Shown: one piece after another, positions 49,163 to 64,000 of the stretch
How the letters are laid out: each line of letters starts with the position of its first letter
How positions within the stretch are numbered: position 1 is the stretch's first letter
Assembly (NCBI GenBank): GCA_017559545.1
Contig: JAFYRK010000108.1
Coordinates: forward strand, 1-64,000
DNA length: 64,000 nucleotides
Direction: 5' to 3'
Source of the DNA: Bacteroidales bacterium
GTDB lineage: Bacteria; Bacteroidota; Bacteroidia; Bacteroidales; UBA932
Translations under genes and position numbers: made by a program
Notes under the pieces: model-generated
Database searches by the model: none
What the model was told of the DNA's origin: nothing
What the model saw: the letters and a program-made list of their open reading frames with translations, nothing else

Positions 49163-50413
49163 ATGAAATTCAACAAATTCTTTATGGTAATGGCTGCTGC
49201 AGCAACTGTATTCGCAGCCTGCAACAAGGAAGGTGGCAATGAAGGTGGTGATGACCTTGCAGATGTTGCTCCTGAATTTACTACTGACCTTGAAGATATC
49301 ATCGTAACTGAGGAGACTCTCGAGGCCGAGCTTACTTTCTCTTACAGCGCAGCTGACTTCGGCGTTGCAACTCAGATCAACTATGCTATCGAAGCTCAGA
49401 TCGGTACAGGTAACAAGGCTGTTGTCGCAACAAGCACAACAACAGAAGCAAAGGTTACTCTTGAGGACCTTAACTATGAACTCGTTACAGTTCTCAACAT
49501 CCCTCTCGGAGTGGCTACTGACGTAAACTTCTACGTGAGCGCTCAGATGGGATCATCAGCAAAGCTTTACTCACAGCCTCAGACAGTAAAGGTTACAGCT
49601 ATCGAAGCTGGTCCTAAGAAGTCTGAGTGGGGTCTTGTCGGTACAATCAACGGTTGGGCTAAACCAGATATCAAGATGTTTGATGTTGATGGCTACTTCG
49701 TTGCTTACAATGTAGAGCTTACTGACACTGATGAGTTCAAGATCCGCGCTAACGAGGAGTGGAATGATGCAAAGAACTATGGTACTGAGATCAAGGGTAC
49801 TTTTGCTCCTAACACTATCATTCCTGTCATCACAAGCGGTGGCTCTTGCAATATCGGAGTTACTACAGCCGGTACTTATGATATCTATTTCGTAATAGAT
49901 GCAACTGATGAGAATAATCCTGGTACAGTTTACCTCATGGAAGCAGGTAAGACTCCTGATCAGGCTGGTGAGGCTGAGGTTGTGTATATTGACCCTTCTG
50001 CTGAGAAGTTCAACGTAGGACTTTCAGGAGACATTCTCGGTTGGGATACTCCTGCATACGAGACTAATGACCGTGCTGCTTTTGTTACAAAGGAGGTTAC
50101 TGACGCAGATACTTATGCCGGAACTTATACATTTGAACTTGCTTCTGTGTCGTTTGCAGAGAACGAACTATTCAAGGTGCGAATCAACGATGGATGGTTT
50201 GGCTACAATCAGGTAACTGTTGAGGGCCTCAGTGTTACACCTGAGCAGGCAAAGGATGGTGACGGAAATCTTCTTTACAACGAGGATCAGACTCCTAAAT
50301 ATGACGATGGTGCTAACCTCATTGTAGGCGAAGCTGGTACTTATAAGATGACCCTTACATTTGCTTGGAATGGTCTGAATGCATCTGAAATCGTTGCAAC
50401 TTTCACAAAGTAA
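49163..50413 (+). CDS. SusE/SusF-like starch-binding outer-membrane lipoprotein
   Basis: Lipobox FAAC (Cys about 20), then an Ig-like SusE N-terminal domain (about 35-150). Two starch-binding domains follow, one at about 155-275 (SEWGLVGTINGW, DGYFVAYNVEL, DEFKIRANEEWNDAKNYG, AGTYDIYFVID, VYLMEAGKTP) and a shorter one at about 280-416 (FNVGLSGDILGWDTPAYE). The first is clearly homologous to a domain inserted in the amylase encoded next. It probably helps hold starch at the surface. Confidence 0.88.
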   Translation: MKFNKFFMVMAAAATVFAACNKEGGNEGGDDLADVAPEFTTDLEDIIVTEETLEAELTFSYSAADFGVATQINYAIEAQIGTGNKAVVATSTTTEAKVTLEDLNYELVTVLNIPLGVATDVNFYVSAQMGSSAKLYSQPQTVKVTAIEAGPKKSEWGLVGTINGWAKPDIKMFDVDGYFVAYNVELTDTDEFKIRANEEWNDAKNYGTEIKGTFAPNTIIPVITSGGSCNIGVTTAGTYDIYFVIDATDENNPGTVYLMEAGKTPDQAGEAEVVYIDPSAEKFNVGLSGDILGWDTPAYETNDRAAFVTKEVTDADTYAGTYTFELASVSFAENELFKVRINDGWFGYNQVTVEGLSVTPEQAKDGDGNLLYNEDQTPKYDDGANLIVGEAGTYKMTLTFAWNGLNASEIVATFTK

Positions 50414-50507: not shown

Positions 50508-53123
50508 ATGAAGAAGATATTGTTTTTCCTTTCGGCCGTTGTCCTTATGGCAGCGTGCGATACAGCTGAACCCTCGGTACCTGATGGACCTACGTTTGAC
50601 CTGTCTACCCTGGTGGCAGGCTTGAACACCGATCCTCAGACACCGGATGCCGACAAGGCTTGTGTCATTTATTACAAGGCAGACTCAAAGTCTCCTTTCT
50701 ACAACTATTCCGACGATATTTATGCCCATATCGGCGTAGTTGATGGCACATGGAAGTTCGTGCAGGCAGGCTGGACCGAAAACAAGGACAAGTGCAGGTT
50801 CATTCCTGTCGAAAGCAACGTGTGGAAACTTCCTCTGGAGCCTACGATCCGCGAATATTTCGGAGCAGGGAATTCCGCAGTGGAAAGGATCGGTGTGGTT
50901 GTCAGAAATGCAGACGGAACGAAGCAGACTGAGGACCTGTTCATAAGTGTGAATGATGAGAAGAATCAGTTCGTTCCTGCCGAGGTAAAGATGCTCCCGC
51001 TTCCTGCTGGAGCAGAGCACGGAATCAACTACAATGAGGACGGTTCGGTGACTCTCGTATTCTATGAAAAGGACAAGAACGGCAAGAGATATGACTATTG
51101 TTACCTCATCGGCGAATTCAGCGGCTGGGAACGCCAGGATGCATATATCATGAATCGTGACGAGGAGGCCGGATGCTGGTGGTACACCATGACAGGTGTG
51201 GATGCGGACAAGGAATACATGTTCCAGTACTATGTCGGAAACGTGGGCGGTGACAAGAGACGATATGCGGATCCGTATTCGGAAGTGGTGTATGAGCAGT
51301 ATGACAAATACGTTTCATCTTCGACTTATCCTAACATGCCAAAATTCCCTTCACAGACAAGCGGAGCTGTATCCGCATTCCAGGTAAACCGTCCTGAGTA
51401 TGATTGGGATGTCGAGGATTATCAGATTGCTGACGAGAATGACCTCGTGATATATGAGCTTCTTTTCCGTGACTTCACTGCAACGAAGGATATCAATGGA
51501 GCGATGCAGAAACTCGACTACCTCAGGAGTCTCGGAGTCAATGCGATTGAGCTCATGCCTATCCAGGAGTTCAGTGGAGCTGACAGCTGGGGATATAATC
51601 CTATCGCATATTTCGCTCTTGAGAAGGCGTATGGTACCCGTGAAATGTACAAGGAGTTCATAGATGAGTGCCACAAGAAAGGTATGGCTGTCATAGTGGA
51701 TGTAGTATACAACCACGTACATGAGGACCATGCGATGGCTGGCCTCTATTTCGATTGGAGCAGTTTCAAGCCGACAGCAAATAACCCTTGGTTCAATGTC
51801 ACTGCACCACATCCTTTCAGTGTATTCCATGACTGGAATCATGAGAACCAGATGGTTCGTGACCATATAAAGAAGAGCCTTACGTACCTCATAGAGGAAT
51901 ATAAGGTGGACGGATTCCGTTTTGACCTTACAAAGGGCTTCACCAACAAACAGAGCACTGAGTCTTCGGCTTCGAATTATGATGCTTCGCGCGTGGCGAT
52001 CCTCAAGGATTACGGTTCGCATATCAAGAATGTGGATCATAATGCAGTTGTGATCCTCGAGCATTTCGCTGACACTGAAAACAAGGATCTTGCTGCGGCA
52101 GGAATGAAGGTGTGGAGAAATATGAATCACGCTTTCCGTTCGTCGGTAAGCGGATCTATGAAAGGCGTCGACTTCTCGGGGTTATGGACAGGTTCCGGTG
52201 CTCCTTTCGGTACTTATGTGGGCTTCATGGAGAGCCATGACGAGGAACGTACTTGCTACGGTGCCACTACTGCTGTTGATAACCAGTCGGTCAAATGGGG
52301 AATCTGCGGTACTTTCACAGATGATTGGAAGACAGACATTGCCATGAGTGCAGATGGGGATTTCTTTGTTGCCCGAAGTGTTGAATTTGCCGCAAACGAC
52401 AAGTTCAAGATCCGTGGTAACGGTACATGGGACGATGCCTACAACTACGGTGCATCAAGCGCTGGATACAAACTTCCTTTGAATAAAGGATATGGCTTGA
52501 CCGTTGGCTCCGGATCGCAGAACATGGCTGTACCTGCTGCCGGCAAGTATGATATATATTTCAATCCTGATGCCAAGACGATATGGCTTATGGAGGAGGG
52601 CAAGAGACCTGAGGCAATAGTGGTTGAAGATATAGAGCCGCTTGAGAGGGCTATGCGCCGTTCGGCATGTAATGCTGCGTTCTTCCTTACTGTTCCAGGT
52701 CCGAAGATGATCTGGCAGTTCGGTGAACTCGGATATGACATCTCCATCGAAGAAGGAGGACGTACAGGCAGGAAACCTCTCCACTGGGAATATTACGATG
52801 TCCCTGCAAGAAGGGAACTGTACGATACATATGTAGACCTGCTGAGGTTCCGTAAGGATAATCCTGAATTCTTCAGGCAGGATGCCGAATTCAGCTGGAA
52901 GGTCGGATCGACGAACCATCCAGGCAAGGTCATTACCTGTGCTGCTGTAGGAAAACGTTTCACAGTAGTTGGAAACTTCGGTACAGGAAGTCAGACCATA
53001 AGCGTTGACACCAAGGAGGACGCAACATGGTACAACTACTTCGACAGGACCGAAACCTACTCGGGACAGACATTTGACATCACTCTCAACGAGGGAGACT
53101 TCCGTGTCCTCGTGAATTGGTAG
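50508..53123 (+). CDS. GH13 alpha-amylase lipoprotein with an inserted starch-binding domain
   Basis: A surface-type starch hydrolase. Lipobox LMAAC (Cys 17), an N-terminal beta domain (about 45-155), an E-set/CBM48-like domain (about 175-260), and the GH13 barrel from about 310. Catalytic residues are D473 (DGFRFDL), E518 (VVILEHF) and D578 (ESHDEER). Directly after D578, at about residues 595-706, lies a SusE-type starch-binding domain (VKWGICGTFTDDW, DKFKIRGNGTWDDAYNYG, AGKYDIYFNPD, IWLMEEGKRP). The barrel then resumes with ACNAAFFLTVPGPKMIWQFGE. The neighbouring paralogue lacks this insert. Confidence 0.93.
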   Translation: MKKILFFLSAVVLMAACDTAEPSVPDGPTFDLSTLVAGLNTDPQTPDADKACVIYYKADSKSPFYNYSDDIYAHIGVVDGTWKFVQAGWTENKDKCRFIPVESNVWKLPLEPTIREYFGAGNSAVERIGVVVRNADGTKQTEDLFISVNDEKNQFVPAEVKMLPLPAGAEHGINYNEDGSVTLVFYEKDKNGKRYDYCYLIGEFSGWERQDAYIMNRDEEAGCWWYTMTGVDADKEYMFQYYVGNVGGDKRRYADPYSEVVYEQYDKYVSSSTYPNMPKFPSQTSGAVSAFQVNRPEYDWDVEDYQIADENDLVIYELLFRDFTATKDINGAMQKLDYLRSLGVNAIELMPIQEFSGADSWGYNPIAYFALEKAYGTREMYKEFIDECHKKGMAVIVDVVYNHVHEDHAMAGLYFDWSSFKPTANNPWFNVTAPHPFSVFHDWNHENQMVRDHIKKSLTYLIEEYKVDGFRFDLTKGFTNKQSTESSASNYDASRVAILKDYGSHIKNVDHNAVVILEHFADTENKDLAAAGMKVWRNMNHAFRSSVSGSMKGVDFSGLWTGSGAPFGTYVGFMESHDEERTCYGATTAVDNQSVKWGICGTFTDDWKTDIAMSADGDFFVARSVEFAANDKFKIRGNGTWDDAYNYGASSAGYKLPLNKGYGLTVGSGSQNMAVPAAGKYDIYFNPDAKTIWLMEEGKRPEAIVVEDIEPLERAMRRSACNAAFFLTVPGPKMIWQFGELGYDISIEEGGRTGRKPLHWEYYDVPARRELYDTYVDLLRFRKDNPEFFRQDAEFSWKVGSTNHPGKVITCAAVGKRFTVVGNFGTGSQTISVDTKEDATWYNYFDRTETYSGQTFDITLNEGDFRVLVNW

Positions 53124-53167
53124 TACCTACCTTAGTCCGGAATGTGAAAATCAACATCAGTTTAATT

Positions 53168-55594
53168 ATGATACGTAAATTTTTAACCAATCTTCTTGTC
53201 GTGTCGTTTGTGGCGTTCGGTGCCATGTCGTGCGAGAAGGAGCAGACTCCGCCTGAGGATCAGGGAGGAGTTGACAATTCGACCGAAGAATCTGTTACAG
53301 GGGATTCCAGTTGTAATGCAGCTGGAAATGAGAGCTTTATCGAGAACCCTTTGGCTGATAACACCGCTACGGCTCTTTGGGTAACCCCTGAACTTCCAAA
53401 CGCAGATGAACCGGCTACAATTTCATTCAGAGCAGGTAAGAGATCCAAACTTTTTGGATATACCGGTGATGTCTATGCTCATATCGGTGTCCTTGAGTAC
53501 GGCGTATGGAAATATGTACAGGCTGATTGGGAGGAAAATATAGACAAGTGCAAGTTCACCAAGGACGAGACTCTGGCCAACACATGGCATCTTGAACTTG
53601 GCCCGACAATACGTGATTATTTCTCAAGCGGCACGACTGCAGTCACTCAGATAGGAGTGGTGATCCGCAGTGAGGACAGTAAGTTGAAAGGTATTGAGGA
53701 GGATAGCTTCATTGCAGTGCAGGATGACCTTTATGAGCCGTTCCTGCCAGGTGATGCTGTGAGCGCATCCATGCCTGCGGGATGTAAGTATGGTATCAAT
53801 GTGGATGGAAACCAGATTACATTCGTTCTTCACGACAAGGATAAGAGAGGTGAGCATAAGGACTATGCATACATCATGGGTGACTTCAACGACTGGACTC
53901 TTACAAACGATGACAAGAGCCGCATGTACCGTGATGATGCCAACGGATGCTGGTGGATCACTGTGAGCAACCTTGACCCTGATGTGGAGTACTGCTACCA
54001 GTTCTATGTCGGAGACCGCTCGACCAAGGAGGGTGAGCCTGATAAGGTCATCAGACTTTCAGACGCATTCTCTGAGAAGATACTAAATCCTGATGCAGAC
54101 AAGTGGAATAAGATATATCCGGCAGATGAAATGGTTTATCCGGGCGACAAGGGTGCTTCCGGTGCCGTTTCGTGCGTGAAGATCAACAGAGATAATTTCG
54201 TATGGGATCCGTTTACATTCAAGAACAAGGAGTGCCCTGTGATCTACGAAATGCTTTTCGGAGACTTTACTGAGACCCATGACATCGTGGGAGCCATCGG
54301 TAAGCTGGATTATCTCAAGACTCTCGGCATCAATGCGGTAGAACTCATGCCTATCCAGGAGTTTGATGGAAACGAAAGCTGGGGATATAACCCTACTCAC
54401 TACTTTGCCCTTGATAAGGCCTATGGTACACGTGAACAGTACAAGACATTCATCAACGAGTGCCACAAGAGAGGTATCGCAGTGATACTTGACGTCGTTT
54501 ATAACCACAGTACAGGTGCGTCTCCTCTTGCCCAGATATATTGGGACTCAAGCACAAACAAGACTGCATCCAACAATCCATACTTCAATGTGGATGCTCC
54601 GCATCCAATGAGTGTATTCCATGACTTCAACCATACGGTTCCATTCGTTCAGGACCTTGTAAAGCGCAGCCTTGTCTACTTGATCGAAGAGTACAATGTG
54701 GACGGATTCCGTTTCGACCTTTCAAAGGGATTTACCCAGAATAGTTCATGGGACAATGTGGATGCTGCACGCGTGAGCCTCATCAAGGATTATGCAAGGG
54801 CAATCAAGGCTGCTGATCCGGACAGCTACATCATTCTCGAGCACTGGGGAGACTACAGCGAGGAGTCTGATTATGTCAGGAATGACATGCATCCTTGGAA
54901 GAAGATGAACTACGAGTACTGCGAGACTGCTATGGGTTACAAGGCAGACCTCAGCGGAACTCACAAGTATCTTGATGGCACTTGGGGCGCAACAGGTTGG
55001 GTTACCTTCATGGAGAGCCACGACGAGGAGCGTATGGCATACAAGCAGGAGAAGCATGGTGCATCTTCAGTCAAGGGTAATCTCAAGAACAGCATGCAGA
55101 ACCTTGCACTCAATGCGGTATGCTTCCTCGGAACACCTGGTCCGAAGATGATCTGGCAGATGGGTGAGCTCGGATATAACTACAACAAGTGGTGTTCTTC
55201 AGATGGTACCGACTACACTGGTACAGAAGAGCATGAAACTGACAGAAAGCCGGTCAAGTGGGACTATTATAATGTGCCTGAACGTAAGGCCTTATATGAT
55301 GTCTACTGCACGATGAATGAGCTTCGTAATGACAACCCTGACCTGTTCGGCAAGGGAGCATATTACACAAGTACAATGTCGTCATGGCCACTCAAGACCT
55401 TCGAACTTGATAAGAACGGCAAGAAGGTGTATGGCTATGTTAACTATCATGGTCAGGATAGTGGGGCTAAGACACTCAATATCCCAAGCGGTACATGGAC
55501 AGATATCCTTTCAAAAAAGACTGTATATGGCGGAAACTATACACTCTACCCAGGTGAGGCCCTTGTTCTGGTAAATTCATCAGTTGTAAAGTAA
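53168..55594 (+). CDS. GH13 alpha-amylase lipoprotein
   Basis: A paralogue of the preceding amylase without the inserted domain. Lipobox GAMSC (Cys 22), N-terminal beta domain, E-set domain (AYIMGDFNDW), GH13 barrel with D517 (DGFRFDLSKG), E558 (YIILEHW) and D619 (ESHDEER), followed by the uninterrupted ALNAVCFLGTPGPKMIWQMGE. A C-terminal beta domain ends the protein. ATG 53168 is chosen over an in-frame ATG at 53117 that overlaps the previous gene. The two enzymes probably act together at the cell surface. Confidence 0.93.
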   Translation: MIRKFLTNLLVVSFVAFGAMSCEKEQTPPEDQGGVDNSTEESVTGDSSCNAAGNESFIENPLADNTATALWVTPELPNADEPATISFRAGKRSKLFGYTGDVYAHIGVLEYGVWKYVQADWEENIDKCKFTKDETLANTWHLELGPTIRDYFSSGTTAVTQIGVVIRSEDSKLKGIEEDSFIAVQDDLYEPFLPGDAVSASMPAGCKYGINVDGNQITFVLHDKDKRGEHKDYAYIMGDFNDWTLTNDDKSRMYRDDANGCWWITVSNLDPDVEYCYQFYVGDRSTKEGEPDKVIRLSDAFSEKILNPDADKWNKIYPADEMVYPGDKGASGAVSCVKINRDNFVWDPFTFKNKECPVIYEMLFGDFTETHDIVGAIGKLDYLKTLGINAVELMPIQEFDGNESWGYNPTHYFALDKAYGTREQYKTFINECHKRGIAVILDVVYNHSTGASPLAQIYWDSSTNKTASNNPYFNVDAPHPMSVFHDFNHTVPFVQDLVKRSLVYLIEEYNVDGFRFDLSKGFTQNSSWDNVDAARVSLIKDYARAIKAADPDSYIILEHWGDYSEESDYVRNDMHPWKKMNYEYCETAMGYKADLSGTHKYLDGTWGATGWVTFMESHDEERMAYKQEKHGASSVKGNLKNSMQNLALNAVCFLGTPGPKMIWQMGELGYNYNKWCSSDGTDYTGTEEHETDRKPVKWDYYNVPERKALYDVYCTMNELRNDNPDLFGKGAYYTSTMSSWPLKTFELDKNGKKVYGYVNYHGQDSGAKTLNIPSGTWTDILSKKTVYGGNYTLYPGEALVLVNSSVVK

Positions 55595-55609
55595 AAGATT
55601 TTGAATAAT

Positions 55610-57541
55610 ATGAGAAAATATATACTCCTCCTTTGCACTCTTTGCCTTGGACTTGTGTCTTGTGTAAAGGAAAATATGACAGGCGTCGATGCTGATGGAC
55701 TTACTACATTCAAGGCGGTTCATGCTGATGCCCAGACAAAGACTGTTCTTGAAGGTCTGACTCCTATGTGGACACCTGCTGACAAGATCAGTGTTTATGA
55801 CGGTAAGAACAACGAATTCGCAAACTCATTGTCTGCGCCTGCCCTTACTGCTGAATTCAAGGGCAAGCTGAAAGGGCAGGGAGCAGGTCGCGAAAGCTTC
55901 ATGGCTGCCTCTCCATACAGCGATGCCTACAGCTTCTCTTTTTTGGGTTCGATTGTCTCAGGTCTGGAAGTGCCTGCAGAACAGACTGCAGTGGAGGGAA
56001 GCTATGACCCGAAGGCAGCTCCTGCTGTCGCATATTCGACATCGACAAATCTTTCATTCAATAATGCATATTCTCTCGTGAAGTTCACCATTGTTTCAGA
56101 TGGTGTCACAGAGGTCAGCTTTGAGGGTAATGCTGGCGAAATCCTTGCCGGTAAGATGAATGTGACCAAGGAGTCTCCTTTGAAGATATCCGTTACAAAG
56201 GGAGAGGCAAAGGTTGTCCTTAAAGGCGAATTCAAGAAAGGTTCGACATATTACCTTTCCACTGTTCCTGTGGTTCTTACTGGCGGATTCAAGGCTGTAC
56301 TCAAGACTTCTGCAGGCGAAACCGTGGAGTCTATGGTGTTTACCAACCCTGTAGGACTCGAGCGCAGCGGAATGGTGAATCTCGGTAATCTTTCTCTCGA
56401 TCCGAACGAGTCGGAGCTTCCAAGTGTCCCTGGCGTAGCGGAGGAAGGCTATCTGTATTTCAAGCCAACTGCTGACTGGACAGCGAACGGTGCGCACATT
56501 GCGGCGTTCTTCTGGAAGGACGAGACTGACAACACATGGGTCGACCTTGTCGAGGATGCTGAGGAAGGAGTTTACAAGTGTGAGACACCTGAGGGATACA
56601 GCAATATAATCTTTGTAAGCATAAAGGCTGGTGCAGTGAACCATTGGGACAACAAGCTTGTTCAGACCACTGACCTGACTGTTCCTGCTGGGGAGAAAGT
56701 ATGCTTCGTTCCTACAGGCAAGGACGGCGAAGGCAAGGTTACGGGAGAGTGGACTGCATATCCTCCTACAGATGTACCTGCAGATCCTAATCCTGGCAAC
56801 CCTGGCGGTGATGTGGAGACTGTAGAGACAATCTACCTCCGTCCTAATTCGAACTGGCTTGAGGCCGGTGCGCGTTTTGCCGCTTATTTCTTTGAGGGAG
56901 CGAACAATACATGGGTGAGCCTGACAGCAGATGCCGAGGCAAATGTCTTCAAGTGTGATGTTCCTGACGGATATAGCAACGTTATCTTCGTCAGAATGAA
57001 TCCGGGCGTTTCTGACAACAGATGGAATACTGATGCGGATGTCGATCCTAACAAGCCGGTTTGGAATCAGACACCTGACCTGTTCGTTCCTTCTGCAGGA
57101 AGCTCGAGCATATGCTACGTCGTCACTCCTGGCACATGGGGCGAGGATGGTTACTGGACAACATATCCGCCAGTGGTGACAGAGCCGGATCCGACTCCGG
57201 ACCCTGGTACAGGAGAGAATCCGAACCCTGGCACAGGCGGAGAGGAGATTACTGCATGTAAGCTGACGCTAAAGGTCAATAAAGCCATCACATGGTATGA
57301 CAAATATATTTATTCATGGGATGCGAATGGCGAAATTCTCGGTACTTGGCCAGGAGTAAAGTTGGGCTGGGTCGGAGAAGAAGGTGACTACTATGTCTAC
57401 TATCATGATTTCGATAAGTCTCTGAATGGTAAGAAAATCAATTATATCATCAGTGGTGACGGCGCACAGACAAAAGACCTGACTGTAACCCTCAACGGAG
57501 CCAACACGACTGTCACAGTCGAACAGAGCGATCTGAATTAA
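55610..57541 (+). CDS. Fimbrillin-like lipoprotein fused to three glycan-binding domains
   Basis: Lipobox GLVSC (Cys 18). Residues about 20-270 follow the Mfa1/FimA-like pattern of Bacteroidetes surface lipoproteins (KTVLEGLTPMWTPADKISVYDG and a C-terminal GMVNLGNLSL). Then come two related modules (about 280-385 and 406-525: YLYFKPTADWTANGAHIAAFFW and YLRPNSNWLEAGARFAAYFF). After a Pro/Gly linker (about 527-547) comes a CBM26-like module (IYSWDANGEILGTWPGVKLG). It closes the first starch locus and probably binds starch at the cell surface. ATG 55610 is preferred over TTG 55601. Confidence 0.8.
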   Translation: MRKYILLLCTLCLGLVSCVKENMTGVDADGLTTFKAVHADAQTKTVLEGLTPMWTPADKISVYDGKNNEFANSLSAPALTAEFKGKLKGQGAGRESFMAASPYSDAYSFSFLGSIVSGLEVPAEQTAVEGSYDPKAAPAVAYSTSTNLSFNNAYSLVKFTIVSDGVTEVSFEGNAGEILAGKMNVTKESPLKISVTKGEAKVVLKGEFKKGSTYYLSTVPVVLTGGFKAVLKTSAGETVESMVFTNPVGLERSGMVNLGNLSLDPNESELPSVPGVAEEGYLYFKPTADWTANGAHIAAFFWKDETDNTWVDLVEDAEEGVYKCETPEGYSNIIFVSIKAGAVNHWDNKLVQTTDLTVPAGEKVCFVPTGKDGEGKVTGEWTAYPPTDVPADPNPGNPGGDVETVETIYLRPNSNWLEAGARFAAYFFEGANNTWVSLTADAEANVFKCDVPDGYSNVIFVRMNPGVSDNRWNTDADVDPNKPVWNQTPDLFVPSAGSSSICYVVTPGTWGEDGYWTTYPPVVTEPDPTPDPGTGENPNPGTGGEEITACKLTLKVNKAITWYDKYIYSWDANGEILGTWPGVKLGWVGEEGDYYVYYHDFDKSLNGKKINYIISGDGAQTKDLTVTLNGANTTVTVEQSDLN

Positions 57542-57616: not shown

Positions 57617-60600
57617 ATGGACAGATGTAGAAATATTCTGACGTCACTTGCACTGCTTTGTGCAAGTGACGTTATTTTATCCGCACAGGGCGGATATGGG
57701 GTCACAGGAACTGTGGAGGACAGTGTCGGCCCCGTGATAGGTGCCACTGTGGTAGAACAGGGTACCTCAAACGGTACTGTTACCGGACTGGACGGAGGCT
57801 TCTCGCTTATTGTCTCCAGTCCTGATTCTCCGGTTGAAATCAGTTGTGTAGGATATGTGTCGCAGGTATATCCGGCCTCCCAGGTACCTGAAACAGTTAC
57901 TCTGAAGGAAGACTCGGAATTTCTTGACGAGGTAGTGGTCATCGGTTATGGAACTGCGAAGAAGGATGACATGACCGGATCAATAATAGCCTTCAAGGCA
58001 GAAGACCTTAACAGAGGAACTGTGGTCAATACTCAGGACATGCTCAAAGGTAAAGTTCCAGGCCTGCTTGTGACTCCTGGTGACGGAGGTCCGGGATCCG
58101 GATCGCGTATACGTATCAGAGGCTCCGCTTCTCTCAATGCTTCAAATGATCCTCTTATAGTCATCGACGGGGTCCCGATAGCTCACGGTGCGGCTGGGGC
58201 TATGTCAAATCCGTTGGACCTGCTCAATCCCGATGATATCGAATCATTTACGATATTGAAGGATGCTTCTGCAGCGGCGATCTATGGTTCACGCGCATCG
58301 AACGGTGTCATCATCATCACAACTAAGAAAGGTTATGGAGCCAAGCCGAAAGTTACTTATACGGGTTCGGTGAGCCTGCAGCATATTTCCGGCAAGGTGC
58401 CGGTAATGTCGCCGTCCGAACTTGTGGACTTTTATTCGCAGGTATATCCTGCGGGGACTCCGACGGGAAACCGGATACAGGCTCTGATGGGAGACGAGCG
58501 CACAGATTGGCAGGACCTGATATTCCGTCCGGCATTTCTGACCGATCATAATGTCAGTGTGTCGGGAAATGTCCGCAACAGGATGCCGTATAGGGCATCT
58601 GTCGCATATCTTGGCCAGCAGGGAACCTTGAAGGAGGCCAGATATGATAGGGGAACGGTGGATGTAACCCTTTCTCCGGACTTCTTTGACAAACATCTCC
58701 GTCTTGACATCAATGCAAAAGGAGTGTACTCGTACCAGGACTATTCTGACGGCGGCACTGTACAGACTGCCGCATTCTTCAATCCGACACAGGATCCTTA
58801 CTGGAGGAATCCGGACGGTTCGATTGACTATACGACCACGAACGGATTCTGGAACTATGGAAACGGTGTAGGAAACCTCTTTGCACCGAATGTTCTTGTG
58901 GGACCAAGCCCGCTATCGATGCTGTATGATAATCTGAGCGATGCCCGCTCGGGTCGTTTCATAGGCCGTGCGGCCGTCGATTATAAGGTGCATGGCTTCG
59001 AGGCTCTGAGTTTCAACGTGAGCGCTGGATTGGATATCACCGTTACCGATTCATATAACGGAGTGGTTCCGGGTTCATTTCAGGCTTATACCGACACTGC
59101 AAATCTTGGTGTCGGCAGATATAATCGCGGCTACAATCTCAGCCGCAGCCAGACATTTGAGGCCTATGCGTCATTCAAGGACTCATGGGGTATCCACAGT
59201 CTGGATGCCGTGGCCGGATATTCATGGCAGAACAATTACTCGGCAAACCGCAGTATAAATTATTTCAATGTAACCCATCAGCCGAACCTGAATCCTGGTG
59301 AGACCATTGATTCAAGGTATCTGATGTATAGGAGCGAGAACTTTCTGGTTTCGTTCTACGGACGTGTGAACTACACGATTGATTCCAGATATGTATTCAC
59401 CTTCACAGCCCGAGGAGACGGCTCAAGCAAGTTCAGTGCGGCTCACAGATGGGGATTTTTCCCTTCCGGAGCCTTTGCGTGGAACATAGCGCACGAACCA
59501 TTCCTCAAGGATGTAAAGGCTGTTTCTGCTTTGAAGTTCAGGTTCTCGATCGGTCAGACCGGCCAGCAGGACGGTATCGGAGACTATGTGTATCTGGCAC
59601 GCTATAATATGTCTAACAACCCGTCTTACATGTATAACATGGGTAATGAGAATTTCATGAACATGTTGACTCCGCAGGCTTATGACCCTTTGATCAAGTG
59701 GGAGACTACGACTACTTATAATGTCGGCATTGACTATGGATTCTTCGACGACAGGCTGAGCGGAAGCATTGACGCATACCTGCGTGATACAAAAGACCTG
59801 CTCAACTCCGTTCAGGTGCCTATGGGCTCGAATTTCGGAAACAAGCTTATGACGAATATCGGCTCCATCCGCAACACAGGTCTGGAGTTCTCTGTCAGTG
59901 GAATACCCGTTCAGACAGATTCATGGAGCGTTCAGGTCGGCTTTAATGGCACATTCCAGGAGACCGTCTTAACTAAACTCAATGTTACTGAAGATGATAA
60001 TTACTACATAGAGACCGGTAACATTACCAAAGGAACGGGAGGATATCTCTCACGCCAGATGGTCGGTTATGCTCCATATACATACTATACATATAAGCAG
60101 AAGTATGATGCGGACGGAAAACCGCTCCAGAACCAGTTCGAGGACCTGGATAGTGATGGGGAAATAACAGATGGTGACAGGTATATGACAGGCAAGAGTC
60201 CGGCTCCGAAATTCTATTATGGACTCAACCTGAAGGTCGGATACAAGAACTGGGACTTCGGTCTCAATGGTCACGGTTCTGCTGGTGTGTGGATATTCAA
60301 CGACTTTGCATCGGCTAACTCTACTGCCAGTCTGGACCTTAATTCGGGAGCTCTTCCTAATCAGGCTAAACTGGTGAAGAATACCGGATTCGTCGAGCCG
60401 AACAGTGCTCAGCAGTGGTACTCTGATTACTTCCTGGAGAACGGTTCGTTCTTCCGTCTGGATGATGTGAACATGGGATACACCTTCAAGGATATAGGAC
60501 GATGGGGGACTAACATACGTCTTGCGCTCAGCATGCAGAATGTCTTCATTCTGACCGGCTACAGCGGACCTGACCCGGAAACCACTTCCGAAAACGGTAT

Positions 60601-60661
60601 CGATAACACCATGTGGCCACGCTCCCGTACCTACTCCCTCCGCCTGAATGTAAAATTTTAA
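57617..60661 (+). CDS. SusC-like TonB-dependent receptor, locus 2
   Basis: The architecture is the same as locus 1: signal peptide ending LSAQ, carboxypeptidase D-like domain (VTGTVEDSVGPVIGATVVEQG), TonB box EVVVIGYGTAKKDDMTGSI, plug with MLKGKVPGLLVTPGDGG and SRASNGVIIITTKKG, and a barrel ending SLRLNVKF. Long stretches match locus 1 closely (for example NDPLIVIDGVP and FTILKDAS-AAIYGS). It likely takes a related alpha-glucan. Unusually, 206 bases separate it from its susD. Confidence 0.95.
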   Translation: MDRCRNILTSLALLCASDVILSAQGGYGVTGTVEDSVGPVIGATVVEQGTSNGTVTGLDGGFSLIVSSPDSPVEISCVGYVSQVYPASQVPETVTLKEDSEFLDEVVVIGYGTAKKDDMTGSIIAFKAEDLNRGTVVNTQDMLKGKVPGLLVTPGDGGPGSGSRIRIRGSASLNASNDPLIVIDGVPIAHGAAGAMSNPLDLLNPDDIESFTILKDASAAAIYGSRASNGVIIITTKKGYGAKPKVTYTGSVSLQHISGKVPVMSPSELVDFYSQVYPAGTPTGNRIQALMGDERTDWQDLIFRPAFLTDHNVSVSGNVRNRMPYRASVAYLGQQGTLKEARYDRGTVDVTLSPDFFDKHLRLDINAKGVYSYQDYSDGGTVQTAAFFNPTQDPYWRNPDGSIDYTTTNGFWNYGNGVGNLFAPNVLVGPSPLSMLYDNLSDARSGRFIGRAAVDYKVHGFEALSFNVSAGLDITVTDSYNGVVPGSFQAYTDTANLGVGRYNRGYNLSRSQTFEAYASFKDSWGIHSLDAVAGYSWQNNYSANRSINYFNVTHQPNLNPGETIDSRYLMYRSENFLVSFYGRVNYTIDSRYVFTFTARGDGSSKFSAAHRWGFFPSGAFAWNIAHEPFLKDVKAVSALKFRFSIGQTGQQDGIGDYVYLARYNMSNNPSYMYNMGNENFMNMLTPQAYDPLIKWETTTTYNVGIDYGFFDDRLSGSIDAYLRDTKDLLNSVQVPMGSNFGNKLMTNIGSIRNTGLEFSVSGIPVQTDSWSVQVGFNGTFQETVLTKLNVTEDDNYYIETGNITKGTGGYLSRQMVGYAPYTYYTYKQKYDADGKPLQNQFEDLDSDGEITDGDRYMTGKSPAPKFYYGLNLKVGYKNWDFGLNGHGSAGVWIFNDFASANSTASLDLNSGALPNQAKLVKNTGFVEPNSAQQWYSDYFLENGSFFRLDDVNMGYTFKDIGRWGTNIRLALSMQNVFILTGYSGPDPETTSENGIDNTMWPRSRTYSLRLNVKF

Positions 60662-60669
60662 AAGGTATC

Positions 60670-60850
60670 GAGATTGCCACGTCGCTGATGCTCCTCGCAA
60701 TGACGTATACACTCATTCAGTATGGACACACTCCCTACGAATAGACGTGAATGCTCGTTAACTATGGACATACCCTACGAATAGACGTGAATGCTCGTTA
60801 ACTATGGACACACACGTCATTGCGAAGCCCTTCAGGGCTGTGGCAATCTC
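60670..60850. repeat. 181-bp inverted-repeat element with internal tandem repeats, between susC and susD
   Basis: The ends match as inverted repeats in two blocks: GAGATTGCCAC (60670-60680) with GTGGCAATCTC (60840-60850), and CGCAATGACGT (60696-60706) with ACGTCATTGCG (60814-60824), each separated by 15 bases. Inside are two copies of a 40-42 bp unit, starting TATGGACA and ending GCTCGTTAAC (60721-60762 and 60763-60802), plus a third partial start at 60803. The ends resemble the dispersed bacterial palindrome GTCATTGCGA-n-GGCAATCTC. Confidence 0.85.
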
Positions 60851-60867
60851 ATAAACAAGAATGCAAT

Positions 60868-62496
60868 ATGAAATGGACAATATACATAGCGGCTGTTGCC
60901 GCACTTCTCACCTCCTGTGTGCGGGATCTGGATACTCTTCCTTTGGACAAGACGGAACCGGTGTCCGAATACGTTTACGGTAATTCCGAGGAGGCATATC
61001 TTGCGGGCTTGACGCGCCTTTATTTTCAGTTTGTCACAAATGATCTGACGGACATGCAGCCAATGGATGGTGGCGCTTCGGAGCTGATCCGTGCCTTCTG
61101 GTCGGTACAGGAAATCACTACCGATGAGGTAAAATGTTCATGGGAAAATGACGCCTGGGTGCGTGCCTTGAACACGAATACATGGACAGGAGTCCAGAAT
61201 GATGCTATCTATGCGGTATATGTACGCACGCTCCAAGGTGTGGCCTTCGTGAACGAATATCTTCGCCAGACGACCCCAGACAAGCTGGCGTCTCGCGGGG
61301 TTTCCGCTGAACTTGCGGCAACAATCCAGACATACCGTGCCGAGGCAAGATTTATCAGAGCCTATCTCTACTGGATTGCTCTCGACTGCTTCGGAAATGT
61401 TCCTTTTACTACAGAGAACTCTCAGTTCGGAGGTACATATTTCCCTACGCAGGCCCCACGTCAGCAGGTGTTTGACTATTGCGTGGGGGAGCTGAAATCC
61501 CTGATGGCAGATGATAGCCCCATGCTATCTGCGCACTCTCTCTATCCTCGTGCCGATAAAGGTTCGGCTGCCGGTCTGCTGGCCCGTATGTACTTGAATG
61601 CCAAGGTGTACATTGGGGTTGACATGTCCCAGGAAGCTAAGGCTTTATGCGAGGATATATTCGCCATGGGCTACCAGCTCAGTCCATCATACGCCAACCT
61701 TTTCAGGGGTGATAACGGTCAGAATGCATCTGCCCGTGCGGAGTTTCTCTGGGCAGTCGATTATGATAACAATAATATCAACTCCTATGGTGGAACGACG
61801 TATATACTTAGTGCCTCAATGGCCTCGACTGACATTACGGATTCATCCAGACCGAACGGTCAGGTCAATGGCTGGGCAGGCTTGCGTACTCCTTATGAAT
61901 TCGTATCAAAATACTACGATGTTTCGGGACAGAATTATCAGACAGGAGACTACCAGACACTTGACAAGAGGGGAGAGATCTTCTACATAAAGGGTCGCAG
62001 CGAATCTATGGAGGGTGCTCTGTACAACTTTATGAACGGATGGACTTGCTTGAAATTCAATAATATACCATCAAATGAGACCAATCAGTCATACCTTCCG
62101 CAATCGGCGACCATGAGCAACTCCAATGTTGACTTCCCGATGATCCGCCTTGCGGAAATCTACCTGATCTACGCTGAGGCGTGCATGAACCTTGACGTCC
62201 AGGAAGAAGCACTTCCGTACATGCAGGCCCTCGCCACCCGCGCCGGGGTCGCTCCGCCGTCGGAAATCACTCCGGATTTCCTCCTTGCCGAGCGCGCCCG
62301 TGAGCTCTTGTGGGAGGCCCACCGCCGCACCGACCTCATACGCTTCGGCCTCTTCCATACAGATGGCCTTCTCTGGCCGTACAAGGGCGGTGACTCATAC
62401 GCCGGTGCGGCCTTTCCGGCCTATCGCTGCATCTTCCCGCTCCCTCCGACCGAGCTGGCCACTAACAAGGCCCTTGTCCAGAACCCAGGGTACTAG
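60868..62496 (+). CDS. SusD-like surface glycan-binding lipoprotein, locus 2
   Basis: Lipobox LLTSC (Cys 17). Landmarks match locus 1: YRAEARFIRAYLYWIALDCFGNVPF, YPRADKGSAAGLLARMYLNAKVY, FPMIRLAEIYLIYAEACMN and AERARELLWEAHRRTDLIRFGLF. The frame extends upstream to 60820, but that part lies in the repeat element; ATG 60868 opens the signal peptide. The last 250 bases are notably GC-richer than the rest of the gene. Confidence 0.94.
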   Translation: MKWTIYIAAVAALLTSCVRDLDTLPLDKTEPVSEYVYGNSEEAYLAGLTRLYFQFVTNDLTDMQPMDGGASELIRAFWSVQEITTDEVKCSWENDAWVRALNTNTWTGVQNDAIYAVYVRTLQGVAFVNEYLRQTTPDKLASRGVSAELAATIQTYRAEARFIRAYLYWIALDCFGNVPFTTENSQFGGTYFPTQAPRQQVFDYCVGELKSLMADDSPMLSAHSLYPRADKGSAAGLLARMYLNAKVYIGVDMSQEAKALCEDIFAMGYQLSPSYANLFRGDNGQNASARAEFLWAVDYDNNNINSYGGTTYILSASMASTDITDSSRPNGQVNGWAGLRTPYEFVSKYYDVSGQNYQTGDYQTLDKRGEIFYIKGRSESMEGALYNFMNGWTCLKFNNIPSNETNQSYLPQSATMSNSNVDFPMIRLAEIYLIYAEACMNLDVQEEALPYMQALATRAGVAPPSEITPDFLLAERARELLWEAHRRTDLIRFGLFHTDGLLWPYKGGDSYAGAAFPAYRCIFPLPPTELATNKALVQNPGY

Positions 62497-62537
62497 AGTG
62501 TGTTCGGTAAACGCTTGTATATCAGTGTTTTGTGTTG

Positions 62538-62567
62538 TCTCCTTGCTCCCTTTTGGCGGCAAGGAGA
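62538..62567 (+). terminator. Hairpin after susD of locus 2
   Basis: TCTCCTTGC (62538-62546) pairs with GCAAGGAGA (62559-62567) across a 12-base loop. There is no T-run, so it may be a weak terminator or a 3' end stabiliser. Confidence 0.4.
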
Positions 62568-62690
62568 TAATGTAAGTAGCTGATTCATACTTGCTTCTTG
62601 ATTTCAAGGTTCATCAGCAAATTCCGGCCGTTCGTCATAATGTTTCAACATTTGGGTTTTATATATTGAAAATATATAAGAAATAATCCC

Positions 62691-62698
62691 TATATTCG
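62691..62698 (+). promoter_or_regulatory. Possible -7 element of the pullulanase gene
   Basis: TATATTCG (one base off TAnnTTTG), 61 bases before ATG 62760. The rest of the 263-bp gap before this gene shows only the hairpin at 62538-62567. Confidence 0.3.
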
Positions 62699-62759
62699 TA
62701 AGATTTGTAAAAACAAGCAGGTTGCTGAACCAGTCAATACAGATATAACACAAAACATT

Positions 62760-64000
62760 ATGATATCAATGAAGAATTTTCTGATGGGAACAATGGCTGC
62801 GGCCTTAATGGTCTCTTGCGCTTCAGACGGCGCGCTTATCGTACCGAAGGATACACTTGAGGAGTGTGTCTACATGGGAGAAAAGACACAGTTTGCAGTG
62901 TGGGCTCCTGATGCTGAGGCAGCTCAGCTCAAGCTCTACAACACAGCTGAAGAGGAAACTCCGTTCAAGACTGTGGACATGATGCTTGGAAAGGACGGTC
63001 TGTGGAAAACGACCGTAAAGGAGGACGTCAAGGGTACTTTCTATACTTTCCAGGTCAAGAAGAACGGCCAGTGGCTTGAGGAGACTGCCGGTATCGCTGC
63101 AAAGGCAGTAGGTGTGAACGGCTGGAGAGGTGCTGTTATCGATTGGAATGAGACAGATCCGGAAGGATGGGCAGAAGATAAGAGTCCGCAGATCGCAAAG
63201 TCAGACATCATCGTCTATGAGATGCACCACAGGGATTTCTCTATCCACCAGACTTCAGGCGTAACCAACAAGGGTAAATATCTCGCTCTTACAGAGGAGG
63301 GAACAAAGAACCCTGACGGCCTCGCAACAGGTATCGACCACCTCAAGGAGATCGGAGTGACTTATATTCAGCTCCTTCCGTCGACAGACTTCATCACAGT
63401 GGACGAGACACACCTTGAGAACAACCAGTATAACTGGGGATATGATCCTTTCAACTACAACGCAGTAGAGGGATCATACTCGACAGACCCATACAACCCT
63501 GTAACACGTATCAAGGAGTTCAAGCAGATGATCCAGGCTCTTCACAAGGCTGGCTTCCGCGTGATCCTCGACGTGGTATACAACCACACTACAGATGCTT
63601 CAAAGACAGGTTTCGAGCGCACAATGCCGGGTTACTTCTACCGTATGCGTGAGGACGGAACATTCTTCGACGGCTCAGGCTGCGGCAATGAGACTGCATC
63701 GGAGCAGGCTATGTTCCAGAAGTACATGCTCGAGTCTCTCGAGTGGTGGATGAAGGAGTACCATATCGACGGCTTCCGTTTCGATCTCATGGCAATCCAC
63801 GACATCGAGACCATGAACCTCATCAGTGAGCGTCTCCACGCTATTGATCCTGAGGTTGTGAGCTATGGTGAGGGTTGGGCGGCACAGGCTCCTGCATACC
63901 CGGCAGAGCAGATAGCTCTCAAGTCGAATACATACATGCTTGACAAGGTAGGAGCATTCAGCGACAATATCCGTGATGCTGTCCGCGGACCTCTCGGCTG
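62760..64000 (+). CDS. pulA: Type I pullulanase lipoprotein, GH13 (3' end outside window)
   Basis: It cleaves alpha-1,6 branches of pullulan and amylopectin. Lipobox MVSC (Cys 20), then an E-set domain (about 30-125, TQFAVWAPDAEAAQLKLY) and the GH13 barrel with YEMHHRDFS. The signature YNWGYDP at 224-230 is diagnostic of type I pullulanase. The catalytic nucleophile is D342 (DGFRFDL) and the acid/base is E371 (SYGEGW). The reading frame is open to the window end, after 413 codons. ATG 62769 is an alternative start. It is the debranching partner of the amylases upstream. Confidence 0.93.
   Translation, partial: MISMKNFLMGTMAAALMVSCASDGALIVPKDTLEECVYMGEKTQFAVWAPDAEAAQLKLYNTAEEETPFKTVDMMLGKDGLWKTTVKEDVKGTFYTFQVKKNGQWLEETAGIAAKAVGVNGWRGAVIDWNETDPEGWAEDKSPQIAKSDIIVYEMHHRDFSIHQTSGVTNKGKYLALTEEGTKNPDGLATGIDHLKEIGVTYIQLLPSTDFITVDETHLENNQYNWGYDPFNYNAVEGSYSTDPYNPVTRIKEFKQMIQALHKAGFRVILDVVYNHTTDASKTGFERTMPGYFYRMREDGTFFDGSGCGNETASEQAMFQKYMLESLEWWMKEYHIDGFRFDLMAIHDIETMNLISERLHAIDPEVVSYGEGWAAQAPAYPAEQIALKSNTYMLDKVGAFSDNIRDAVRGPLG

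Follow-up and report, generated by a model that had tools for sequence, protein, structure and literature searches.

SusG of Bacteroides thetaiotaomicron is described as the GH13_36 surface alpha-amylase of the sus locus, with a CBM58 in its domain B (PMC5735674, PMC11633381), and GH10 xylanases of the Xyn10C/Pm25 type are reported to carry inserted CBM4s and to have the gene of a SusE analogue upstream (PMC7848910). The modules of SusE, SusF and Ruminococcus bromii Sca5 have been called X25 (PMC9112005), and BoGH13ASus of Bacteroides ovatus is presented as a GH13_47 enzyme with the architecture CBM98-CBM48-GH13 (PMC11633381). Here we describe an 871-residue GH13 enzyme (positions 50508-53123, + strand) from a sus-type locus of a Bacteroidales bacterium, encoded in a stretch of 64,000 nucleotides (the window; contig JAFYRK010000108.1, assembly GCA_017559545.1), in which the catalytic domain is interrupted by a segment that, by sequence comparison, is homologous to SusE-type repeats.

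The enzyme contains an extra segment of ∼126 residues between Asp578, in the motif ESHDEER, and helix α7, beginning a few residues after Asp578. Alignments, hhalign and structure models delimit it, with its linkers, as a SusE/SusF-type (X25-like) module at residues ∼586-711 (52263-52640, + strand) in the β7-α7 loop, and DSSP assignment of the model gives a β-sandwich core at residues 597-696 (52296-52595, + strand). A previous sequence-only reading of this DNA had put an inserted domain directly after the third catalytic residue, at 52288-52630; the alignments agree with that place and make the extent slightly wider. It had also matched about 110 residues to the SusE-like protein encoded just upstream, and a BLASTP comparison of enzyme residues 596-702 with residues 155-266 of that protein (49625-49960, + strand; 97 bits by hmmsearch) indeed gave 42% identity over 113 columns, with 77.8 bits and an E-value of 2e-19 for this single comparison. 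When 26 inserts were compared by hhalign with 83 SusE-type domains, themselves selected using a profile of inserts, the probability was 100 and the E-value 5.7e-43. These two sets of scores rule out a chance similarity to the SusE-like domain.

The second, tandem GH13 enzyme of the locus (53117-55594, + strand) aligns on both sides of the insert and has only a short loop at that place, in keeping with the continuous barrel that the sequence-only reading had seen in it. Likewise, the alignment to 8dge (B. ovatus BoGH13ASus) breaks at residues 585/714, and the module is absent from BoGH13ASus. The structure model rules out the insert as a part of the barrel, since the segment is predicted as a separate β-sandwich, with a predicted local distance difference test score (pLDDT) of 93.1 when modeled alone. 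Foldseek with the insert alone returned no PDB match at an E-value of ≤0.001. The predicted X25 β-sandwich fold was recognized in a second look with VIA-align, on which the assignment rests, and families outside the listing of that program may also fit. The VIA-align match to 2wan covers chain residues 163-264; in this Bacillus acidopullulyticus pullulanase (CBM41-X45a-X25-X45b...), the matched stretch precedes the catalytic domain, as judged from the reported module order, and is not inside it. No NCBIfam model matched the insert.

An identification of the insert as a CBM58 was not adopted, given the VIA-align result and the scores of PF20756, which reached 20.7 bits on the whole protein and 16 bits on the insert alone versus a cut-off of 24. 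PF20756 itself, the SusG-type CBM58, turned up in only one of 119 sampled order genomes (L182/L234 in genome G407), and hhalign of the inserts against this one SusG-like protein gave a weak match with a probability of 40%. Both the alignment and the model place the insert after β7, not in domain B. Like our enzyme, SusG is described as a surface GH13 that is encoded in a sus locus and carries a single interrupting starch-binding module, but its CBM58 lies in a different loop and can be no more than a distant relative of the insert in fold, which makes the analogy good without being exact. The sequence-only reading had compared the two while allowing for a different module and place, and this much stands. 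The Xyn10C/Pm25 enzymes, as described, are likewise surface enzymes of a polysaccharide utilization locus interrupted by carbohydrate-binding modules (CBMs), with a SusE analogue upstream, but they differ in enzyme family, CBM family and loop (β3-α3). The X25 modules of SusE, SusF and Sca5 have the same fold as that predicted for the insert, and the candidate binding residues of the insert are common with SusE-type domains of this genus, but those modules are described in tandem in noncatalytic proteins, whereas the catalytic domain of our enzyme is broken by just one copy. Surface glycoside hydrolases with an interrupting module are thus a known theme, while the type of module and its place were not met in the literature compared. 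Our search found no such insert described, with subscription literature mostly outside its reach, and we make no claim that it is unpublished.

Conservation within the module points to a sugar site. Residues W597, G601, W607, D610, F633, K634, R636, W641, N646, G648, Y681, D682, and W693 are identical in 119/119 distinct inserts, and from conservation we predict W607 (52326), K634 (52407), R636 (52413), W641 (52428), and N646 (52443) as starch-binding residues (52326-52445, + strand). In the SusE-type domains, the same residues recur in 83/83 (W607), 80/83 (R636), 79/83 (W641), 78/83 (K634), and 45/83 (N646) cases. Two tryptophans that may stack on a sugar are accompanied by polar partners, and we infer that W607, W641, K634, and N646 make up the site. 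The sugar contacts reported for SusG include W287, W299, K304, N330, and Y260 (PMC5735674). A weak phmmer alignment (E-value of 0.14) sets SusG chain residue 276 opposite W641. We take chain residue 276 to be W299, assuming an offset of 23.

Apart from the insert, the enzyme is nearest by sequence and by predicted fold to BoGH13ASus and RmGH13_47A and can be classed as BoGH13ASus/GH13_47-like. The top PDB matches by sequence were 8dge (552 bits), 8dl1, 8xx9, and 8xxa, and in a Foldseek search with the model of the enzyme, BoGH13ASus took ranks 1 to 12 and RmGH13_47A ranks 13 and 14; BoGH13ASus is thus the closest solved homologue outside the insert. For GH13_47, an alpha-amylase activity tolerating alpha-1,6 linkages has been reported (PMC11239784). 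The product matches Pfam Alpha-amylase (PF00128) at 1.9e-26, and the catalytic Asp/Glu/Asp of a GH13 (β/α)8 barrel are found in both alignment and model as D473 (51924-51926, + strand), E518 (52059-52061, + strand), and D578 (52239-52241, + strand), all invariant in 67/67 aligned rows. The N-terminal region, residues ∼37-290 with approximate boundaries (50616-51377, + strand), is the counterpart, through a phmmer alignment of residues 22-585 to 8dge, of the part of BoGH13ASus that holds the modules named CBM98 and CBM48 in PMC11633381; Pfam CBM48 had no match on the product. Alignments and model strands place the barrel before the insert at residues ∼314-581 (51447-52250, + strand), and the barrel remainder (α7 and β8) follows with the C-terminal domain at 52638-53120 (+ strand). 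The product is predicted to be a surface lipoprotein with Cys17 as its lipidated residue, the lipobox scoring 15.4 bits with Pfam LPAM_1 versus a threshold of 20.

Loops that follow the β strands of a (β/α)8 barrel lie on its catalytic face, so a module inserted in the β7-α7 loop would leave the barrel on that face. There it likely binds starch and may keep the chain near the cleft as the barrel cuts it, which would raise the action of the enzyme on insoluble or long chains. Since the enzyme is predicted to sit on the outer surface as a lipoprotein, and its sus-type locus has SusC, SusD, SusE-like, and GH13 genes, its products would pass to the neighboring SusC/SusD transporter. We are fairly confident in the overall reading that this is a surface GH13 lipoprotein with a SusE/SusF-type, likely starch-binding module in the loop after D578 that would hold the chain near the cleft and feed SusC/SusD, and that the module most likely had one origin, from a repeat of the upstream SusE-like protein in an ancestral member of the genus, and was likely lost later in at least one lineage. 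Tentatively, and as something short of probable, we suggest a starch clamp rising from the catalytic face beside Asp578, in which one polypeptide would grip and cut the same chain, made by copying a repeat of a neighboring capture protein and offering, through its gain and loss in one genus, a natural on/off experiment on the effect of a binding module at an active site.

The insert might instead be a fold-conserved element for protein docking or spacing, toward the SusE-like protein, SusCD, or the membrane side, with no starch site. Such a role would fit the argument that CBM4s inserted in a surface GH10 enzyme are largely independent of the catalytic domain and the report that the CBM58 of SusG makes no hydrogen bonds to its catalytic domain (both in PMC7848910), as well as the finding that single X25 modules of Sca5/Sas20 did not bind alone (PMC9112005). 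We consider this unlikely because the two Trp and the Lys and Asn proposed to contact the sugar are identical in all 119 distinct inserts, a stricter conservation than in the 83 SusE-type domains.

We followed the insert through samples of 300 genus genomes, 393 order-level genomes, and 295 class-level genomes, the last two of which overlap. A complete insert was read in 23/300 genus genomes, the source genome included. One more genome (G207; L159:6941-9637), not counted as complete, holds a half-deleted insert in frame, with an 89-residue loop and the second half of the module gone, which is either a decaying copy or an assembly artifact; in another (G147), likewise not counted, the insert is split over two contig ends. 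Among the genus genomes with loop-only matches, a subset of 20 was read, and all 20 were uninterrupted. In the order sample, where 195 genomes had a match at an E-value of ≤1e-8, only the source genome spans the insert among the matches listed, which were ranked by E-value; the 29 order-sample loci that were read, and three odd long matches (G338, G521, and G747), are uninterrupted. In the class sample (40 genomes with a match at an E-value of ≤1e-15), only the source genome spans it. An insert common to distant amylases, which would have told against the sequence-only reading, is ruled out by these two samples. Among named loci, 14/80 carry the insert, several of them on the same contigs as sampled genus genomes, 60/80 have a loop of 30 to 51 residues, and 6/80 (L053, L058, L064, L084, L097, and L110) could not be read by the motif pair. 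All of the 120 database proteins listed as closest to this region carry the insert, as expected from their ranking. A PF16411 search was of no help in dating it.

The origin of the module was approached through trees built after removal of near-duplicates (>97% identity) and of two of every three far uninserted rows. A quick module tree, excluding domains below 40 bits or outside 90 to 135 amino acids and 15 loci as duplicates (L040 and L043 of them without a stand-in), placed 26/26 inserts on one side of a branch with a support of 77. In a careful module tree, built without nine long-branch rows and without SusE rows from seven loci, the inserts formed a set with four SusE repeats from two species that lack the insert (L164/G279 and L166/G222; 99/86), itself nested in a 44-row set with 18 SusE-type repeats (100/97). 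This nesting suggests a SusE-type repeat from within the genus as the probable donor, and gene order points to a repeat of the adjacent SusE-like gene. The module trees are limited by 112 columns, long-branch warnings and a midpoint root, and the quick tree puts the d5 repeats of L164 and L166 elsewhere. The sequence-only reading had the domain move within the locus. A SusE-type donor agrees with it, but a recent local move, from the locus's own SusE-like protein into this enzyme, is very improbable: the 42% identity to the neighbor and an approximately unbiased (AU) test on the careful tree that did not significantly reject joining the two local domains (log-likelihood difference of 21.8, p-AU of 0.175) speak for it, but the same loop is occupied in 23 sampled genomes, and the nearest rows to the source insert by path are inserts from other species, with up to 72% identity. 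The move is therefore old.

The history of the enzyme itself was read from a 53-row GH13 tree of the sequence that precedes the insert, with the paralogue left out and only 25 chosen uninserted rows retained. A single clade of inserted genes was rejected (p-AU of 0.00025), inserted L130 and uninserted L048 were sisters (100/100), and an unsupported fork separated the source trio from the remaining 24 inserted rows. Together with the two changes that the inserts need in the careful module tree, the rejected clade would fit a convergent insertion, in which SusE-type domains entered this loop repeatedly within the genus, for instance separately in L130. However, once L130 and L048 are removed, a single clade has a slightly better fit than the free tree that was found (p of 0.535; present in 49% of 200 bootstrap trees), and in the quick module tree the inserts share one side of a branch. 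Moreover, the 30-residue loop of L048 (9572-12160; others are mostly 33-38) has ICVG and RRAG at its ends, which resemble those of inserted genes; C583 and G585 each occur in 111/119 inserts, and no other uninserted gene compared has both. We read this as secondary loss, L048 having likely lost its insert, and regard convergence as quite doubtful. On the careful module tree, one insert clade was not rejected (p of 0.43), and the trees fit, without proving, a single gain by an ancestor within the genus, with a SusE-type repeat as the source, and one or more losses. A 30-residue loop was seen in two records, L048 and L085, one of them titled horse feces.

The tandem paralogue was not adopted as a preinsertion twin of the enzyme, since the tree places it, on a long branch, among Bacteroides-type rows as a separate GH13 lineage. 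An open reading frame (ORF) with SusE-type domains by hmmsearch ends <400 bases upstream of the enzyme in 18/23 genomes with a complete insert, including weak cases in G103 (20 bits) and G266 (14 and 17 bits). In the remaining 5/23, two enzymes start at a contig end and three have no such ORF, one of these with <1 kb upstream. Upstream of L156 (G313), ORF reading gave SusC/SusD-like ORFs and a 389-residue ORF instead. The inserted enzymes L156 and L157 (G313 and G130), with no SusE-type ORF directly upstream, show that the insert persists without that neighbor.

The source genome (2.1 Mb in 150 contigs, 69% complete) belongs to a putatively Candidatus Cryptobacteroides-like genus of Bacteroidales, and many named relatives are, by record title, Bacteroidales metagenome-assembled genomes (MAGs) from goat, deer, buffalo, cow, yak, or horse guts; the source is likely a gut bacterium. 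From ORF reading, which also supplied the transporter, SusC, and SusD names, the locus runs from a transporter (42966) through SusC (44335) and SusD (47407) to the SusE-like protein (49163-50413, + strand), followed by the two GH13 enzymes and a predicted modular lipoprotein of 646 amino acids (55601-57541). Pfam searches covered the SusE-like, GH13, and modular lipoprotein products; the SusE family matched the N-terminal domain of the SusE-like protein (residues 36-125, 3.5e-9), and no family matched the modular lipoprotein at an E-value of ≤1. By eye, the latter shows repeated YLYFKPTADW-type modules, possibly an unnamed starch-binding module, and a CBM26-looking C-terminal piece. At 57617-63998, the first SusC/SusD pair has a counterpart, again followed by a GH13 enzyme, the third, which has a CBM48 match and runs off the window end; two sus-type units thus lie in tandem.

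Surface enzymes of glycan uptake can carry interrupting binding modules, those described for SusG and Xyn10C/Pm25 lying in the β3-α3 region. Here, the loop of a catalytic residue carries a module from a family of capture proteins, and the genus is seen in many herbivore-gut MAGs. Because close relatives include orthologues lacking the insert and a likely case of loss, the contribution of an inserted CBM could be tested with natural pairs. These results suggest that, within one locus, capture protein and enzyme may exchange parts.
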